Part shown: positions 2,971-51,393 of the stretch, piece by piece
Layout of the letters: every line of letters begins with the position of its first letter
Position numbering within the stretch: position 1 is the stretch's first letter
Source: Bacteroidaceae bacterium
GTDB lineage: Bacteria > Bacteroidota > Bacteroidia > Bacteroidales > Bacteroidaceae
Direction of reading: 5' to 3'
DNA: 64,000 nt
Assembly (NCBI GenBank): GCA_017451645.1
Contig: JAFTNZ010000021.1
Coordinates: 1 to 64,000 of the forward strand
Notes under the pieces: generated by a model
Databases searched by the model: none
What the model saw: the letters and a program-made list of their open reading frames with translations, nothing else
What the model was told of the DNA's origin: nothing
Position numbers and translations under genes: made by a program

Positions 2971-3525
2971 CTATTTTTCTCTTATCATGATTACATCAGT
3001 AGGGACTGAGAATCCTAAGTTTTCAAATTTTAATTCTTTTTGTCTAGCCCCTTTCTTTTCATCTAAATACCAGTGAATGGAATCGTTGGATATAGAAACA
3101 ATATGTCCGCCCCCGATACCATTTCCTTTGTTGTGCATTCTTTGTTTGTCGTAAAAGATGGTTTTGATTTTGTCCCTTGTCAAATAGGATTCATCTTCAG
3201 GAAGAGAGTACATAAAGGCATCAATTCCGATGTTATATTTCTCTTCTTCATTGTTTTCACGTATCAAAGAGTCTGGATAAAGACCGATGCAATTGTCAAT
3301 CAGTGTATTGTGAATAGAAATGCTGTATCCACCCCATAAACGGTTGATTATAAGTGCTCTGGAAGTTGTTATAATAGGTTTGAGATTAATTCTGAATATC
3401 GTGTCATTATTTTGATATATCCATGTTCCGATGAAAGGAGTATAATCAATACTGACAGTCTTTTTCTGTGCCATGCACAATGTAGTACATAAGGCCATGA
3501 TTGTTATAAATGCGTTTTTTTTCAT
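2971..3525 (-). CDS. Small secreted protein, unknown
   Basis: 184 residues beginning with a signal peptide (MKKNAFITIMALCTTLCMAQ). The mature part has alternating polar and hydrophobic strands (FIGTWIYQNNDTIFRINL, IVSISNDSIHWYLDE) resembling a small beta-barrel, but I do not recognise a family. It is 11 bases downstream of the JAMM protein gene and 11 bases upstream of the ligase-like gene, so it is almost certainly in the same operon. Confidence 0.7.
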   Translation of the reverse strand: MKKNAFITIMALCTTLCMAQKKTVSIDYTPFIGTWIYQNNDTIFRINLKPIITTSRALIINRLWGGYSISIHNTLIDNCIGLYPDSLIRENNEEEKYNIGIDAFMYSLPEDESYLTRDKIKTIFYDKQRMHNKGNGIGGGHIVSISNDSIHWYLDEKKGARQKELKFENLGFSVPTDVIMIREK

Positions 3526-3536
3526 ATTTTTTATTA

Positions 3537-4724
3537 TTATTCGTCGCAGTCGTTATATTCTCTGATTTGATTTACAATACTTATTGGTCTAAGTCGTGAA
3601 ACACTTTGTAAAATGCCATTTTCATTAGAAGTGTAATCTATTTCATGTTCTGAATAGGAGAAGTTGAGGCCAGATCCCATTCTATCAAGTTCTTGAATTA
3701 GAATGTTTAACATTGTTTCGGAATTATTTGATAAACTTAGAAGATCATTTATGGTATTCTCGTTTTTACTATTTGCGTTACATTCTGATATGAACGTTTT
3801 AAATGCCGTTTCATCTCCTATTGTAATTAATAAAATACTACGATTGTCTATAATTCCGAAATTGTAGGAATTGATGTCAACATTTCCATTTGTATAATTA
3901 TCCATAATTACAGCAAAATCGGAGTAAGAAGGAACAGCCCCTCCTGTTGGATGTGTGTGGAAACGCTCCGTGATTTGCTCACCTTCAAGTCTTGAATTAA
4001 TGTCATTTCCATAATCAATACTTCCTGCTATATTATTGGATGGAGTAAAACTTTTGCCACTTTTTGTTTTCATCCATCCTTTTTCTGGGTAATTATTCCC
4101 AGGCCAGTGAGCACGTAAATCATTGACCATTTTTTCAACGCTGTCTTTAAAGGCTTGATTGTCATATAATGCTTTTGCCTTTTCACATGGATCTGTTATT
4201 CCACTTTGTCCTCCGATTACGATTGAACCACCATTAATGGGAGGAATGGAAATTGTCCCGTTATTGTTTCCATTATTGTTCCCATTCCCATTTCCATTGT
4301 TACCTCCTGATCCAGAATCGCTTCCACCTCCAGAATTATTCCCTCCGGAATTGCCTCCTCCACCATTACATTGGTGTCCCAGTGCAATGATGTATTCTAT
4401 TTGACATGTGAGGCATGTCTGTTTGGCACAGGTATGACTCGTCCCTTTTGTATAATCTTCCAAGCATGTCTTACAACTTTCCGTTGGGCACTCATGGTCA
4501 TCTTTGCAAATGTTTTGTGCTCCACAGGTCGTGCATGCCTCGATGCAAGGAATATCATCACAAGGAATATCTGACTCAAATTCCCCCCATTCATCTTGGC
4601 AGACAAATTCACTGGAACGCATTTGTGCAAACAATTGTGACATTGTTGTCAAAGCAATTTTGTCATTAATCATATTCGGAGCCAAATTTAGCAAGAATAT
4701 CAATATCATCCAAATTTTTTTCAT
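3537..4724 (-). CDS. Secreted JAMM/MPN-type metalloprotease with three CCHC modules
   Basis: 395 residues with an N-terminal export signal. Residues 64-119 form three modules on an exact 20-residue period, each C-x2-C-x9-H-x-C (C64/C67/H77/C79, C84/C87/H97/C99, C104/C107/H117/C119), which look like small zinc-binding knuckles. A Gly/Asn/Ser-rich linker follows (about 121-155). The C-terminal domain carries HTHPTGGAVPSYSD, the H-x-H-x7-S-x2-D signature of JAMM zinc isopeptidases (H256, H258, S266, D269). JAMM enzymes cleave isopeptide or peptide bonds, and bacterial ones also occur in RadC and toxin-like proteins. The start overlaps the upstream Sel1 gene by four bases, so the two are probably translationally coupled. 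The substrate is unknown. Confidence 0.75.
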   Translation of the reverse strand: MKKIWMILIFLLNLAPNMINDKIALTTMSQLFAQMRSSEFVCQDEWGEFESDIPCDDIPCIEACTTCGAQNICKDDHECPTESCKTCLEDYTKGTSHTCAKQTCLTCQIEYIIALGHQCNGGGGNSGGNNSGGGSDSGSGGNNGNGNGNNNGNNNGTISIPPINGGSIVIGGQSGITDPCEKAKALYDNQAFKDSVEKMVNDLRAHWPGNNYPEKGWMKTKSGKSFTPSNNIAGSIDYGNDINSRLEGEQITERFHTHPTGGAVPSYSDFAVIMDNYTNGNVDINSYNFGIIDNRSILLITIGDETAFKTFISECNANSKNENTINDLLSLSNNSETMLNILIQELDRMGSGLNFSYSEHEIDYTSNENGILQSVSRLRPISIVNQIREYNDCDE

Positions 4725-6124
4725 TGTTTGCCTCCTTTCTTGATTACAATGACTTGATAGGTTCGTTTTCCCGCAAAAGCCTTGACAATATAGACACCTT
4801 GTGAAAGATTAGGGGTCAGCACGAAGCGCTGTTCCCCTACAGCCACATCTCCCATATCTGTCATATAGACATTGCGTCCGGAATAGTCGTAGATGGCAAT
4901 CTGTACATTGCATGATTCTTGCAAAGTGAGAGCTAAATTGAGCTTGTCTGAAAATGGATTCGGATATGCCTTGACAACAGTATGCGCCTCTTTGTCCTCT
5001 GCAACAGTGGTTGTTCCTACCTTATGCAGGCTGATGTACATAGGGCGTTGTGGTTCCATGGTCTGAGGTGAAAACATACGTAAATTGCCTGTTAACGAAG
5101 AGGCAAAGGCTGATATTTTAGCTTCTGTAAATTCATACAGGACAGGAGCCGTAGGTGAATAATGGTCATAAGTTTTCATTTGTGTATTCTCAAAATGTAA
5201 AATCCCGTCTTTGAACGTTGCATTCAGTTGTACGGTATCTGTTTCTGTTTGCCATTCACCTTGTACACGTTCTCCGTCTGTTTGCAAAATCAATTGTAGT
5301 GGAGTCTCGCTGAGTATGTGTTGGCCGCTCCAGTCGTAAGTAACCAATATTCCTTGGTAAATACCAGCCAGATCAGAATCCTTCTGTACGGGCTTGATAC
5401 GAGCATAAACTGTAGGTACATTGATGGCATCAGATGTTTGCATTGGTCTTCCTTCCAAAGAATTTTCAGGAGTTTCAGCTTCCAACTCATTTGAGGCAAA
5501 AGCATATCCGAGCTTTTCGGCTTCAGTAAGCCAATAATTGGCTTCTGCAGCATTAGCTTCTACGCCATATCCGTTTCGATAGCATAATCCCAACATATAC
5601 ATGCAAGGAGAGTGTTCATTTCCTGCTCCTTTTACGAAATATGCAAATGCTTTTTGGTAATCTTGGGTACATCCTAATCCCTTATAAAGCATATAACCTG
5701 CATCATAAAGTGCTCCGATACCTCCAGCTTGCACTCCCTTCTCAAAATAATTATATGCTTTTATGAAATCTTGTTGGACTCCACCGTGAGCATAAAAATA
5801 CATCAAACCTAAATTTTGCCATGCACGTGCATATCCTGCTTCTCCAGCTCTGGTCAGCCAGTCAATGGCTTTGCTGCTGTCTGCTTGTACTTCATGGCCT
5901 TGTAGATACATCAGCCCCAGGCCGTTCATGGCCTTGGGATGCCCCAATGTTGCATATTTCTGAAATATTTGTAATGCTCCATTTCGGTTGATTCTTCCTC
6001 CCGAACCTGTGGCCCATGCAACAGCTTTACCAATCTCTTTATTTATTTCATCGTCAGGTTGATAAGCTCCTACGGATGTTGTATATAATACACATCCAAT
6101 GAAGAATAATAATTTGTATTTCAT
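4721..6124 (-). CDS. Sel1-repeat protein with T9SS-type C-terminal sorting tail
   Basis: 467 residues. A signal peptide (MKYKLLFFIGCVLYTTSVGA) is followed by about five Sel1-like repeats (residues 50-215; for example AMNGLGLMYLQG and AWQNLGLMYFYAHG), a beta-rich middle part (250-380), and a C-terminal domain starting KAYPNPFSDKLNL that matches the type A sorting signal of type IX secretion cargo. Sel1 repeats usually bind protein partners. The stop codon overlaps the start of the JAMM gene, suggesting that scaffold and protease are made together. If the genome lacks a type IX system, as many Bacteroides do, the tail must do something else. Confidence 0.8.
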   Translation of the reverse strand: MKYKLLFFIGCVLYTTSVGAYQPDDEINKEIGKAVAWATGSGGRINRNGALQIFQKYATLGHPKAMNGLGLMYLQGHEVQADSSKAIDWLTRAGEAGYARAWQNLGLMYFYAHGGVQQDFIKAYNYFEKGVQAGGIGALYDAGYMLYKGLGCTQDYQKAFAYFVKGAGNEHSPCMYMLGLCYRNGYGVEANAAEANYWLTEAEKLGYAFASNELEAETPENSLEGRPMQTSDAINVPTVYARIKPVQKDSDLAGIYQGILVTYDWSGQHILSETPLQLILQTDGERVQGEWQTETDTVQLNATFKDGILHFENTQMKTYDHYSPTAPVLYEFTEAKISAFASSLTGNLRMFSPQTMEPQRPMYISLHKVGTTTVAEDKEAHTVVKAYPNPFSDKLNLALTLQESCNVQIAIYDYSGRNVYMTDMGDVAVGEQRFVLTPNLSQGVYIVKAFAGKRTYQVIVIKKGGKQ

Positions 6125-6135
6125 TGTTGTAATAA

Positions 6136-6978
6136 TTACCAGTTAAAACTTCCTTTATATCCTTGCTTCTTTGCATAGTTTTTACGGTCAATAGAATAGA
6201 CACGGCGCATTTCCAATGGAGCATAATAGTCTATTGCTTTCCATGCTTCGCGTTTCTTCGCTTCATTGTTCCAGTAAAGGTCTGCGGCTTGCATAATTTT
6301 TAATCGATGTACGAAGATTTTTGCTACGGCAACAGTGCTGTCAAGGTCGTTGGTCATGCCTGCATCTTTCAATCGTTGCCAAAATATTTTTGTATCACGT
6401 GTAGCAATACGGGCATTTTTTGCGCGGAAATATATGTCTATTTGTTCGTTGTCTAATGTTTCTTGCAAGGCTTTCAGTTCTTCTCCCCACAAGCTGTTAT
6501 AGGAACGTTCGGCAACAGGCTTCAGGCGTATCATGTTTGTTACGATATCATTATATTGTGTATCTGTCAGGCCAAGGCCTTTACGGTTCAGAATGGCTGT
6601 ATAAAGATTGGGTAGTCCCATGTTCCAATAAGGAGCCATAACCCGACAGATAGTGTCTTCATACTCTTGATCAATCGAAGACTTTTTCTCATACCTATAA
6701 TTCAGATTGTCTTTTAGATAGATGTTACACATCTGTTTTCGTAATTCACGTTCGTAGATGAGTTGGTACAACCGTTTGGAATCTTCTGCTTCAGCATTCA
6801 TGTTGAAACTTTTGACGTTTTTGTACCATAATTCCTCTGCAATGAGGGCTGTACTCTTTGTCAGTTCTTCATTGTGGATTCGTAACAAGTTCTTTTCCTG
6901 CGGATTGAACTCTTTGTATTGGGCGTTTCCCAATACAGCCACTCCTAAAAAGGTGGCCATCAAAAAAACTTTTTTCAT
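6136..6978 (-). CDS. Secreted helical protein, unknown
   Basis: 280 residues with a clear signal peptide (MKKVFLMATFLGVAVLGNAQ). The rest is rich in charged and aromatic residues and predicted-helical stretches with no cysteine cluster or catalytic motif that I can identify. It starts 35 bases after the transglutaminase-like gene and ends 11 bases before the Sel1 gene, so it belongs to the same operon. No family is recognised. Confidence 0.7.
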   Translation of the reverse strand: MKKVFLMATFLGVAVLGNAQYKEFNPQEKNLLRIHNEELTKSTALIAEELWYKNVKSFNMNAEAEDSKRLYQLIYERELRKQMCNIYLKDNLNYRYEKKSSIDQEYEDTICRVMAPYWNMGLPNLYTAILNRKGLGLTDTQYNDIVTNMIRLKPVAERSYNSLWGEELKALQETLDNEQIDIYFRAKNARIATRDTKIFWQRLKDAGMTNDLDSTVAVAKIFVHRLKIMQAADLYWNNEAKKREAWKAIDYYAPLEMRRVYSIDRKNYAKKQGYKGSFNW

Positions 6979-7013
6979 TGATGTAATTTATTAATGTTAA
7001 TACTCGGTGGATA

Positions 7014-8570
7014 TTACCACCATTCTCTTAATCCTTGGTTATTTATAGTGAAAGGACGTTCTTTTTGTTCGCTGTATTCAGGAATGAGTCTCATCAAAGC
7101 ATTATCAGGTACATTATCAAAGACTAAGGGGGTAAAAGAGCCATCATCATTTTGAGTAGGTATCAATGTCTTTATAGCTTGCCATCTTCCATGTTGAATG
7201 TTCCAATAATAAAGAGTATATCTTTTTCCTGAACGGAATTGTAGGTATCCTTTTTGCTCTTTTATGGTGACTTTTCGTGTGTGCATCATGTTTGGGGCTA
7301 ATTCTTGTACACTACCGTCCATTCGTAATAATTGGGGAGGGGCTGCGGGGATTTTTTTTCCTTGGCTGTAGCAGATAGGTAGATAGACGACTCCACAACT
7401 CATTTGTTGAAAATTTGTCAATCCGTTCCGATTGTAGCTCCACCAGACTGGTTGCCATTTCCCTCCATTCAGAACGCATAGATAGGTTGCTTGATAGGAG
7501 TTGAATTTATGGGGTAGAGTTACTTGAATGTTTCCTACACGCCAATATTCTCCAGTGACATCTATCAGGTTTGGGCTTCGTAAAACACCTTCAGGAATAG
7601 ATTCTTCTTCCAAAATGGTAGCTGGAGTCTCATGTTGAATGGAGTAAGTTACTCGGAAAACTTTAGAAGGCTCACGTCGCATGAAAAACTCTGCTGGTGT
7701 GTCATCGCCCATAAAGAATGGTATGGTCTTTCCCGTTTCATCAAATGCGCATTGCCAAAAATGGCCATTGGTACTTGTACCCCAAAAAGGGGTGAAATCT
7801 ACACAGGATGCTATACCTTTGGAACGTAACATATAAACTCCCCAGTTTGCCATATCTTCACAGTATCCTTGACGCCGGAAAAGTATTTGACGGGCAGAAA
7901 GTACATGTTGTGGCTCTTTTTGGACTTCATGCTCAAAAATATCAGAAAACCATAATTTCAAGTCTTCACATAATGAAGTGCAAACTTGCCTGACAGTTTT
8001 GTTATGGCATTTATCCCATTGTGACGCAAACTCTTTCCTATATTCATTCCTCCAATTACTAAGTGGTTCATCCATGATACGATACGGCAGTAAGTATTCG
8101 CAAAATAGCGTGAAGGGTAATCGGGCAGACCATTTGTTTTCCCATAAAGAGAATGCATCATCAATATTATGAATTAGGTAATCAGCTTTGATCGTTTGTA
8201 AATCCCACGTGTAGGTTTTTACAGGAGATAGTTTTTGCTGTTTTGATAAGGTGTTGAATTCCGTCACAGCCTGTTCGTAGGTAGAATAATCAAATTCATT
8301 AAAAGATATATGTTGATGTGAGGTGTTTTCCCAATAATAACTTTGGCCACAATGAATAGGCATATTACTAATAAGAAAACATGCTGCCTGAAATTTTTTA
8401 GTATTTGTTATTTTGTAGTGTTTCAATACCTTTTCAAGTTCTGAGGCATTAATTCCAGCTTTATGAAGAGCTTCGTTGACATTTGTAGGATAATCATTTG
8501 CCACACTGGGGGTAGCAAATGTTAAAGATGCTGACAAGAGGATCTTGATTGTATAATTTTTTATATGCAT
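7014..8570 (-). CDS. Secreted transglutaminase-like protein
   Basis: 518 residues with a signal peptide (MHIKNYTIKILLSASLTFA). The central part contains FRRQGYCEDMANWGVYML and TNGHFWQ, the Cys and His boxes of the transglutaminase/peptide N-glycanase fold, with likely catalytic C237, H270 and D277. Bacterial members act as cysteine proteases or amide hydrolases, or crosslink Gln to Lys. The C-terminal part (330-518) is beta-rich and ends in NQGLREWW. It is the second gene of the operon, 95 bases after the DUF3244 gene. An isopeptide-forming fold next to an isopeptide-cleaving JAMM fold is noteworthy. Confidence 0.8.
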   Translation of the reverse strand: MHIKNYTIKILLSASLTFATPSVANDYPTNVNEALHKAGINASELEKVLKHYKITNTKKFQAACFLISNMPIHCGQSYYWENTSHQHISFNEFDYSTYEQAVTEFNTLSKQQKLSPVKTYTWDLQTIKADYLIHNIDDAFSLWENKWSARLPFTLFCEYLLPYRIMDEPLSNWRNEYRKEFASQWDKCHNKTVRQVCTSLCEDLKLWFSDIFEHEVQKEPQHVLSARQILFRRQGYCEDMANWGVYMLRSKGIASCVDFTPFWGTSTNGHFWQCAFDETGKTIPFFMGDDTPAEFFMRREPSKVFRVTYSIQHETPATILEEESIPEGVLRSPNLIDVTGEYWRVGNIQVTLPHKFNSYQATYLCVLNGGKWQPVWWSYNRNGLTNFQQMSCGVVYLPICYSQGKKIPAAPPQLLRMDGSVQELAPNMMHTRKVTIKEQKGYLQFRSGKRYTLYYWNIQHGRWQAIKTLIPTQNDDGSFTPLVFDNVPDNALMRLIPEYSEQKERPFTINNQGLREWW

Positions 8571-49692: not shown

Positions 49693-49766
49693 GCCTCTTT
49701 AGCTCAGTTGGCCAGAGCACGTGATTTGTAATCTCGGGGTCGTTGGTTCGAATCCGACAAGAGGCT
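49693..49766 (+). tRNA. tRNA-Thr (TGT)
   Basis: GCCTCTT acceptor pairs with AAGAGGC, with T as discriminator. The anticodon loop TTTGTAA gives TGT. The T arm GGTTCGAATCC is standard. No CCA is encoded. Confidence 0.92.
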
Positions 49767-49787
49767 CTCCTGAAAAAGGAAAACGTT

Positions 49788-49870
49788 GGGCAAATACCAG
49801 AGTGGCCAAATGGGGCAGACTGTAAATCTGCTGGCTTACGCCTTCGGTGGTTCGAATCCATCTTTGCCCA
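49788..49870 (+). tRNA. tRNA-Tyr (GTA)
   Basis: GGGCAAA acceptor pairs with TTTGCCC. The 83-base length, with a long variable arm (TGGCTTACGCC), marks a class II tRNA. Anticodon GTA lies in GACTGTAAATC. Confidence 0.94.
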
Positions 49871-49877
49871 CAAAATT

Positions 49878-49950
49878 GCGGAAGTAGCTCAGTTGATAGA
49901 GCATTAGCCTTCCAAGCTGAGGGTCGCGGGTTTGAGCCCCGTCTTCCGCT
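49878..49950 (+). tRNA. tRNA-Gly (TCC)
   Basis: GCGGAAG acceptor pairs with CTTCCGC. The anticodon loop CTTCCAA gives TCC. D and T arms are regular. Confidence 0.93.
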
Positions 49951-49959
49951 CTTTTTAAT

Positions 49960-50031
<72 letters not shown>

Positions 50032-50077
50032 CAAGTGTGAAACAGATTATTCATTATTATAATAAATAAGTAAAGCT

Positions 50078-51262
50078 ATGGCTAAAGAAAAATTTGAACG
50101 TTCAAAACCGCATGTTAACATTGGTACGATCGGCCACGTTGACCACGGTAAGACCACTTTGACTGCCGCTATCACTACGGTATTGGCTAAGAAGGGTTTC
50201 TCAGAAGTAAAGTCTTTCGACCAGATTGACAATGCTCCTGAAGAAAAAGAGAGAGGTATCACTATCAATACTTCTCACGTAGAGTATGAAACTGAAATTC
50301 GTCACTATGCTCACGTAGACTGTCCGGGTCACGCCGACTACGTTAAGAACATGGTAACTGGTGCTGCTCAGATGGACGGTGCTATCATCGTTTGTGCTGC
50401 TACAGACGGTCCGATGCCTCAGACTCGTGAACACATCCTCTTGGCTCGTCAGGTAAACGTACCTCGCTTGGTTGTATTCTTGAACAAGTGTGATATGGTT
50501 GACGATGAGGAAATGCTCGAACTCGTTGAGATGGAAATGCGTGAGCTTCTTTCTGCTTATGAGTTTGACGGTGACAATACTCCTATTATCCGTGGTTCTG
50601 CCCTTGGTGCGCTGAATGGTGTTGCTCAGTGGGAAGATAAGGTAATGGAGTTGATGGATGCTGTTGACAATTGGGTGCCCCTGCCTCCTCGTGATGTAGA
50701 TAAACCTTTCTTGATGCCCGTTGAGGACGTATTCTCAATTACTGGTCGTGGTACTGTTGCTACTGGTCGTATCGAAACTGGTGTTATCCATGTAGGTGAC
50801 GAAGTAGAAATCCTCGGTCTTGGAGAGAACAAGAAATCAGTTGTAACTGGTGTTGAAATGTTCCGTAAATTGCTTGATGAGGGTCAGGCTGGTGATAACG
50901 TAGGTCTGTTGCTCCGTGGTATCGACAAGAACGAAATCAAGCGCGGTATGGTATTGTGTAAGCCCGGTCAGATTAAACCTCACTCTAAGTTCAAAGCTTC
51001 TATCTACGTTTTGAAGAAAGAGGAAGGTGGACGTCACACTCCGTTCCACAACAAGTATCGTCCTCAGTTCTACCTCCGTACTATGGACTGTACCGGTGAA
51101 ATCTCTTTGCCCGAAGGTGTAGAGATGGTAATGCCTGGTGATAACGTAGAAATCAATGTTGAGTTGATTTACGAGGTAGCCTTGAACGTAGGTCTCCGTT
51201 TCGCAATCCGCGAGGGTGGACGTACAGTTGGTTCAGGTCAGATTACTGAAATCCTTGACTAA
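50078..51262 (+). CDS. tuf: Elongation factor Tu
   Basis: 394 residues. GTP-binding motifs [20 protein letters not shown] and NKCDM, the RGITI effector region, and domains II/III of normal length. It delivers aminoacyl-tRNA to the ribosome. Codon use is strongly biased, as expected for a very highly expressed gene. Confidence 0.98.
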
Positions 51263-51273
51263 TTAAAATAGTC

Positions 51274-51301
51274 ATCGGCTCTTGGGTAACCGAGAGCCGA
51301 T
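51274..51301 (+). terminator. Hairpin after tuf
   Basis: ATCGGCTCT (51274-51282) pairs with AGAGCCGAT (51293-51301). It lies directly before tRNA-Trp and may act as a terminator or as a processing signal. Confidence 0.6.
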
Positions 51302-51305
51302 ATTT

Positions 51306-51378
51306 ACGGGAATAGCTCAGTTGGTAGAGCACCGGTCTCCAAAACCGGGTGTCGGGAGTTCGAGCCTCTCTTCCCGTG
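51306..51378 (+). tRNA. tRNA-Trp (CCA)
   Basis: ACGGGAA acceptor pairs with TTCCCGT, with G as discriminator. The anticodon CCA lies in GTCTCCAAAAC. It is 15 bases upstream of secE. Confidence 0.94.
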
Positions 51379-51393
51379 CTAATCTTGAAATTT

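Follow-up and report, generated by a model that had tools for sequence, protein, structure and literature searches.

An exported JAMM-domain protein and the adjacent DUF6705 gene as a putative toxin-immunity pair in a Bacteroidaceae bacterium

The 64,000-nucleotide stretch of Bacteroidaceae DNA presented above (the window) contains, at positions 3537..4724 of the minus strand, a gene for a protein with a signal-peptide-like start, three CCHC modules and a C-terminal JAMM (JAB) domain, directly followed by a gene of the DUF6705 family. By comparison with related loci, we propose that the two genes are probably a toxin-immunity pair of the polymorphic-toxin kind, with putative toxicity, neutralisation and substrate. 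The pair has the following features.

3537..4724, minus strand: whole gene, exported protein of 395 amino acids with a C-terminal JAMM (JAB) domain (open reading frame and motifs; sub-cut-off Prok-JAB match)
4623..4724, minus strand: signal-peptide-like start, residues 1-34, ending in ...LFAQ, without lipobox (read by eye)
4368..4535, minus strand: three C-x2-C-x9-H-x-C modules, residues 64-119, period 20 (pattern search, shuffles)
4197..4367, minus strand: Gly/Asn/Ser-rich linker, residues 120-176 (sequence)
3546..4187, minus strand: JAMM domain, residues 180-393, bounded by Cys180 and Cys393 (profile score, 30% identity to the domain from genome G831)
4083..4085, minus strand: E214, the JAMM glutamate (invariant in alignments A1 and A5; aligned with the glutamate of named relatives)
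3951..3959, minus strand: H256-T-H258, metal ligands (invariant in alignment A1)
3918..3929, minus strand: S266-x-x-D269, catalytic serine and third metal ligand (alignments A1 and A5)
2971..3525, minus strand: DUF6705 (PF20448) protein of 184 amino acids with a signal-peptide-like start, the proposed immunity protein, 11 bp downstream of the JAB gene (E 7.6e-27)

The JAMM domain and the CCHC modules

The last ~215 residues form an intact JAMM domain whose family occurs in several genera of Bacteroidota. The motif HTHP-x6-S-x2-D at residues 256-269 is the H-x-H-x7-S-x2-D signature reported in the first-pass annotation, and E214, which aligns with the invariant JAMM glutamate, completes the set, so that the protein carries the E plus H-x-H-P-x6-S-x2-D combination that defines the JAMM (JAB/MPN+) class. 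In alignment A1 the relatives are 12-34% identical to the first row, yet E, H, H and D are invariant in 26/26 members and S is present in at least 90%; in the three sequences of alignment A5, E, S and D are all invariant. The first-pass assignment had been made dependent on the conservation of H256, H258 and D269, and these metal ligands are thus retained throughout. A MAFFT alignment of the window domain with named relatives left S266 and D269 unaligned. Among JAB domains a cysteine is found in the last 6 residues in 49/49 and in the first 22 residues in 41/49, the window counterparts being C393 and C180.

The profile search against JAB families that had been suggested for this domain gave a match to Prok-JAB (PF14464), below the cut-off (E 0.021 for the whole protein, 0.01 for the domain alone), and the PADLOC JAB model matches the protein at E 0.0018. 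A JAB profile built without the window domain gives this domain 15.5 bits, the best of 2000 shuffles reaching 10.7. As for the expected MPN fold, the structure predicted for a JAB relative, modelled in place of the window domain, has the JAB/MPN fold and aligns best with JAB/MPN chains. The activity of the domain is putatively that of a Zn-dependent hydrolase.

The C-x2-C-x9-H-x-C modules start at residues 64, 84 and 104, on the exact 20-residue period described at first pass. Their number exceeds chance: when residues 42-120 (13 Cys, 3 His) were shuffled 200,000 times, three modules never arose and two arose 7 times, and the DNA pattern for two modules occurs twice in the window against 0 expected. 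The spacing of a retroviral-type CCHC zinc knuckle is C-x2-C-x4-H-x4-C, from which these modules differ. The modules had been expected to bind a ligand or stabilise the protein; they are real, but a search for the repeat in other proteins gave no convincing relative in 29 related genomes, plasmids, viral contigs or Pfam. Matches in other genes of two related genomes (G884, G878) and of the window's own genome looked unrelated, a further match lay in G008, the plasmid matches were IS91-family transposases at E 1 or worse, and the 10 viral contigs matching the module DNA pattern had no module in the single open frame read per contig. In Pfam the segment matches nothing but an EGF-like model, below threshold. 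The modules are putative zinc binders; their cysteines, if outside the cytoplasm, could form disulfides instead. The Gly/Asn/Ser-rich linker noted at first pass is found after the modules; a Gly-rich linker ahead of the JAB domain is present in many relatives as well, and in several of them it is preceded by other Cys-bearing segments. Of the earlier description as a secreted JAMM protein, the JAMM part holds, while export rests on a signal-peptide-like start judged by eye (MKK, a hydrophobic stretch, ...LFAQ), in which no lipobox was seen.

Relatives of the JAB gene and its coupling to DUF6705

A search of 393 genomes of the order with the whole protein returned one match besides itself (G281, E 2.9e-4), a 539-residue lipoprotein-like protein (L044:6573-8192) whose C-terminal domain is of the same kind and whose gene has two DUF6705 genes after it. 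The middle part of this lipoprotein matches Pfam Fer2 above the cut-off (E 4.7e-5), which is odd for an exported toxin, and the stretch between the two DUF6705 genes weakly matches the last part of the JAB profile (L119, G281:C20:41725-41853; profile positions 163-210, E 0.009), possibly what is left of an older cassette. With a JAB profile that included the window domain, the 101 genomes of the window's own family yielded one more hit (G831, E 5.6e-17), 30% identical to the window domain over 187 residues; 5 bp after this gene is a protein 33% identical to the window DUF6705, and the lipoprotein-like start of the gene seems to be in another frame. No direct relative of the whole protein was found in plasmids, phages, genome contigs or viral contigs, neither the G831 domain nor the window DUF6705 gave a match in viral scans, and a PDB sequence search with the whole protein gave low-scoring matches, mostly to linker-like stretches. 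The presence of the JAB domain is patchy, with hits at E 0.01 in 12/388 genomes of the order, several hits being weak, and in 2/101 of the family.

The partner family is rare, being over the Pfam cut-off in 17/395 genomes of the phylum and in 3/295 of the order, one of which (G062) matches at positions 1-42 only. The matches in G062, G066 and G089 cover just the first 42-58 positions and look like a signal peptide; they were rejected, although that in G062 is over the Pfam cut-off, and a scan of the three fetched neighbourhoods gave no DUF6705 or JAB hit. Matches below the cut-off occurred in five more genomes of the order.

The JAB domain is tightly coupled to DUF6705 genes. From the partner side, we fetched 32 regions, 28 of them being all places of the phylum search except the window's own and four coming from the order search. 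Gene calls with a DUF6705 profile gave 53 DUF6705 genes and 31 runs with a readable upstream gene; 27/31 runs start directly after a gene with this JAB domain, a count that is partly circular since these upstream genes were the source of the JAB profile. Two further DUF6705 genes were found by Pfam and missed by the profile, one directly after a JAB gene (L102) and one without (L101). From the other side, five JAB domains (A3) were used to scan named genomes, which yielded 27 loci in Flavobacterium, Chryseobacterium, Aureibaculum, Cellulophaga, Winogradskyella and Flavobacteriaceae. All JAB genes in them are directly followed by DUF6705 (30/30, or 25/25 without the loci L128, L136, L138, L142 and L153, which repeat loci of the first set), with a median gap of 12 bp (range -104 to 24). 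The window pair, with its gap of 11 bp, has the same arrangement, which is that of an immunity gene directly downstream of a toxin gene.

The DUF6705 proteins look exported: a loose regular expression finds [AG]Q within residues 11-40 in 93/104 and a lipobox-like S-C-x-x-Q pattern in 71/104, the five repeated loci being counted twice. A DUF6705 relative is predicted to form a lipocalin-like (calycin-like) beta-barrel. A search of open-licence papers turned up none on DUF6705 and no title on its pairing with a JAB gene.

In the relatives, most of which are lipoprotein-like, the JAB domain forms the C-terminal part, and this part varies. In one genome (G487) the N-terminal parts of five genes are 94-99% identical over 101-222 aligned residues, whereas the identity of their C-terminal domains is 22-33% in 9/10 pairs and 61% in the remaining one; L091 and L103, among these five, are shorter open reading frames without a signal. 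A coarser split of a pair in G655 gives 87% for the N-terminal and 26% for the C-terminal part. DUF6705 genes occur in tandem arrays of up to five (L150), and locus L139 has short JAB open reading frames (308, 209 and 142 residues), each then followed by DUF6705. This combination of a variable C-terminal JAB domain with DUF6705 directly after it suggests a toxin with its immunity protein.

Several loci depart from this pattern. The JAB gene of L077 has a different small gene after it, and the DUF6705 of this locus is similar to that of L079 (65%) although the JAB domains of the two loci are not (25%), as if this DUF6705 were an inherited orphan; membership of the 136-residue gene of L077 in the small family of L121 was rejected (BLASTP E 3.7). 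L120 and L121 share a second small exported family (E 7e-10), recognised by PYK..F..DT..YL.YN...YKGKTV, which follows JAB genes in several copies (L120:4061-5974, L121:8175-8946) and may be another immunity family. In L122 (4743-7865) a JAB-domain open reading frame lacks DUF6705 and has three small, similar lipoprotein genes ahead of it. Near a DUF6705 gene of L093 lies a lipoprotein (6890-8146) whose C-terminus looks, by eye, like an M23 peptidase, and other envelope toxins may use the same design.

Upstream of the pair in the window lies one further annotated feature.

4721..6124, minus strand: Sel1-repeat protein carrying a type IX secretion tail (4-nt overlap between its stop and the JAB start)

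It belongs to a minus-strand run of likely genes (8570->1346), namely a transglutaminase-like gene, a gene for a 280-residue protein, the Sel1-repeat gene, the JAB gene, DUF6705 and an O-antigen-ligase-like gene. A search of 5 same-genus genomes at E 1e-20 found nothing matching the Sel1-repeat protein, a weak negative as the search had no positive control. Elsewhere in the window, at 49693-51379, a tRNA cluster Thr-Tyr-Gly-Thr is followed by an open reading frame of 394 residues and then Trp.

Proposed function and alternative explanations

As a toxin, the JAB protein would be exported and would reach the envelope of a competing cell, where its JAMM domain would cut an envelope target, most likely by hydrolysing a peptide or isopeptide bond, with one Zn held by H256, H258 and D269 and E214 as the base. 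The exported DUF6705, for which the role of immunity protein is suggested by its position, would remain in the periplasm or outer membrane of the producer and block the domain in kin. In relatives the place of the CCHC modules is taken by a lipoprotein N-terminal domain; our guess is that the modules may serve in presentation or delivery, as a segment stabilised by disulfides or metal. We infer action in the envelope as a peptidase; as DUF6705 looks exported, protection would be expected outside the cytoplasm. The earlier proposal of an isopeptidase or processing protease is right in outline as to the type of enzyme, whereas the context in relatives, where the domain is the variable C-terminal part and DUF6705 is adjacent, favours a toxin.

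The same adjacency would also fit a protease-inhibitor pair. The JAB protein might then be an exported protease serving its own cell, for instance in the processing of surface proteins, with DUF6705 as inhibitor, chaperone or substrate and no antagonism involved; calycin barrels include secreted inhibitors. We consider this unlikely, although it is the strongest of the alternatives: the constant N-terminus with an exchanged C-terminus, the partner arrays, the short stand-alone JAB open reading frames and the patchy presence all speak more for conflict than for housekeeping. A toxin with a JAB nuclease acting in the cytoplasm of the target, as proposed for related Tox-JAB clades in the available text of PMC3482391, is improbable here in view of the exported appearance of DUF6705 and of the terminal cysteines of the JAB domains, which would suit an oxidising compartment. 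Ligand binding by the zinc-knuckle-like modules as the main function, with an inactive JAMM domain, is the most improbable; the modules are exact and beyond chance, but the window protein and its relatives retain E, H, H and D, and the modules were found in no other protein of the genomes, plasmids, viral contigs and Pfam searched.

A number of observations weigh against the toxin-immunity interpretation. The window domain scores modestly against the profile (15.5 bits), the fold evidence comes from the model of a relative, and Foldseek alone gave that model no match at E <0.001 and ranked a cytidine deaminase first. The evidence for exchange of C-terminal domains likewise comes from relatives and not from the window genome, and no relative of the N-terminus of the window protein was found. 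Distances between domains and between partners correlate (r 0.90; 0/2000 permutations, 49 pairs), but common descent confounds this correlation, and the nearest neighbours match in just 21/49. Four of the 31 DUF6705 runs are not directly after a JAB gene (L077, where the JAB gene sits one gene further upstream; one in L078; L093, near the M23-like lipoprotein; L094, with a JAB-like motif only), in addition to the DUF6705 of L101. The JAB-side scan mainly covers one domain subtype, and other subtypes may differ, as L121 and L077 do; the JAB gene of L121 is followed by the other small exported family and that of L122 by neither.

Comparison with known systems

Rpn11, AMSH, PfJAMM1 and Cap3 resemble the JAB protein in motif and predicted fold and work inside cells, unlike this exported protein. 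Prokaryotic JAB domains known in 2012 also work inside cells, according to the available part of PMC3482391, to which the following statements on Tox-JAB toxins likewise refer. Zhang et al. 2012 proposed a nuclease role for Tox-JAB clades (PMC3482391). An exported immunity protein speaks for an envelope target and against that suggestion, and opens the question of what a JAMM enzyme cuts outside the cytoplasm. The interpretation also offers a testable function for DUF6705 and for a JAB clade whose member in the window stays below every Pfam cut-off.

The closest likeness is to Tox-JAB-1 and Imm65 of Bacteroidetes, in which a JAB domain with HxH, S and D is the C-terminal toxin and the immunity partner is an exported lipoprotein, the only lipoprotein-like immunity protein of that collection (PMC3482391). 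Tox-JAB-1 has N-terminal RHS repeats and Imm65, whereas the pair described here has lipoprotein-like or CCHC N-termini and DUF6705; Pfam gave no RHS match in the window protein. No Tox-JAB-1 model was among the matches of 26 JAB members and no Imm65 model among the Pfam matches of 21 DUF6705 proteins, the presence of either model in the library being unverified. Tox-JAB-2/DUF4329 (PF14220) shares the E, H[ST]H, S and D set and differs in its described partner, an NTF2-fold immunity protein (PMC3482391); PF14220 matches 2/26 JAB members (best E 3.9e-5), and the window protein is not matched. The TANFOR/BaCT toxins of Bacteroidetes, in the available part of PMC7073777, similarly combine a shared N-terminal domain with varied C-terminal toxins, an immunity gene within 50 bp downstream and type IX secretion substrates nearby, but their N-terminal domain is another one and BaCT is a DNase.

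Whether the putative JAMM toxin and its DUF6705 partner belong to a third, undescribed JAB-toxin clade of Bacteroidota, made up of surface-anchored or exported JAMM peptidases that attack the envelope and not nucleic acid, with lipocalin-like exported DUF6705 immunity proteins and, in the window gene, a new triple CCHC module in place of the usual N-terminal domain, we regard as evenly balanced.
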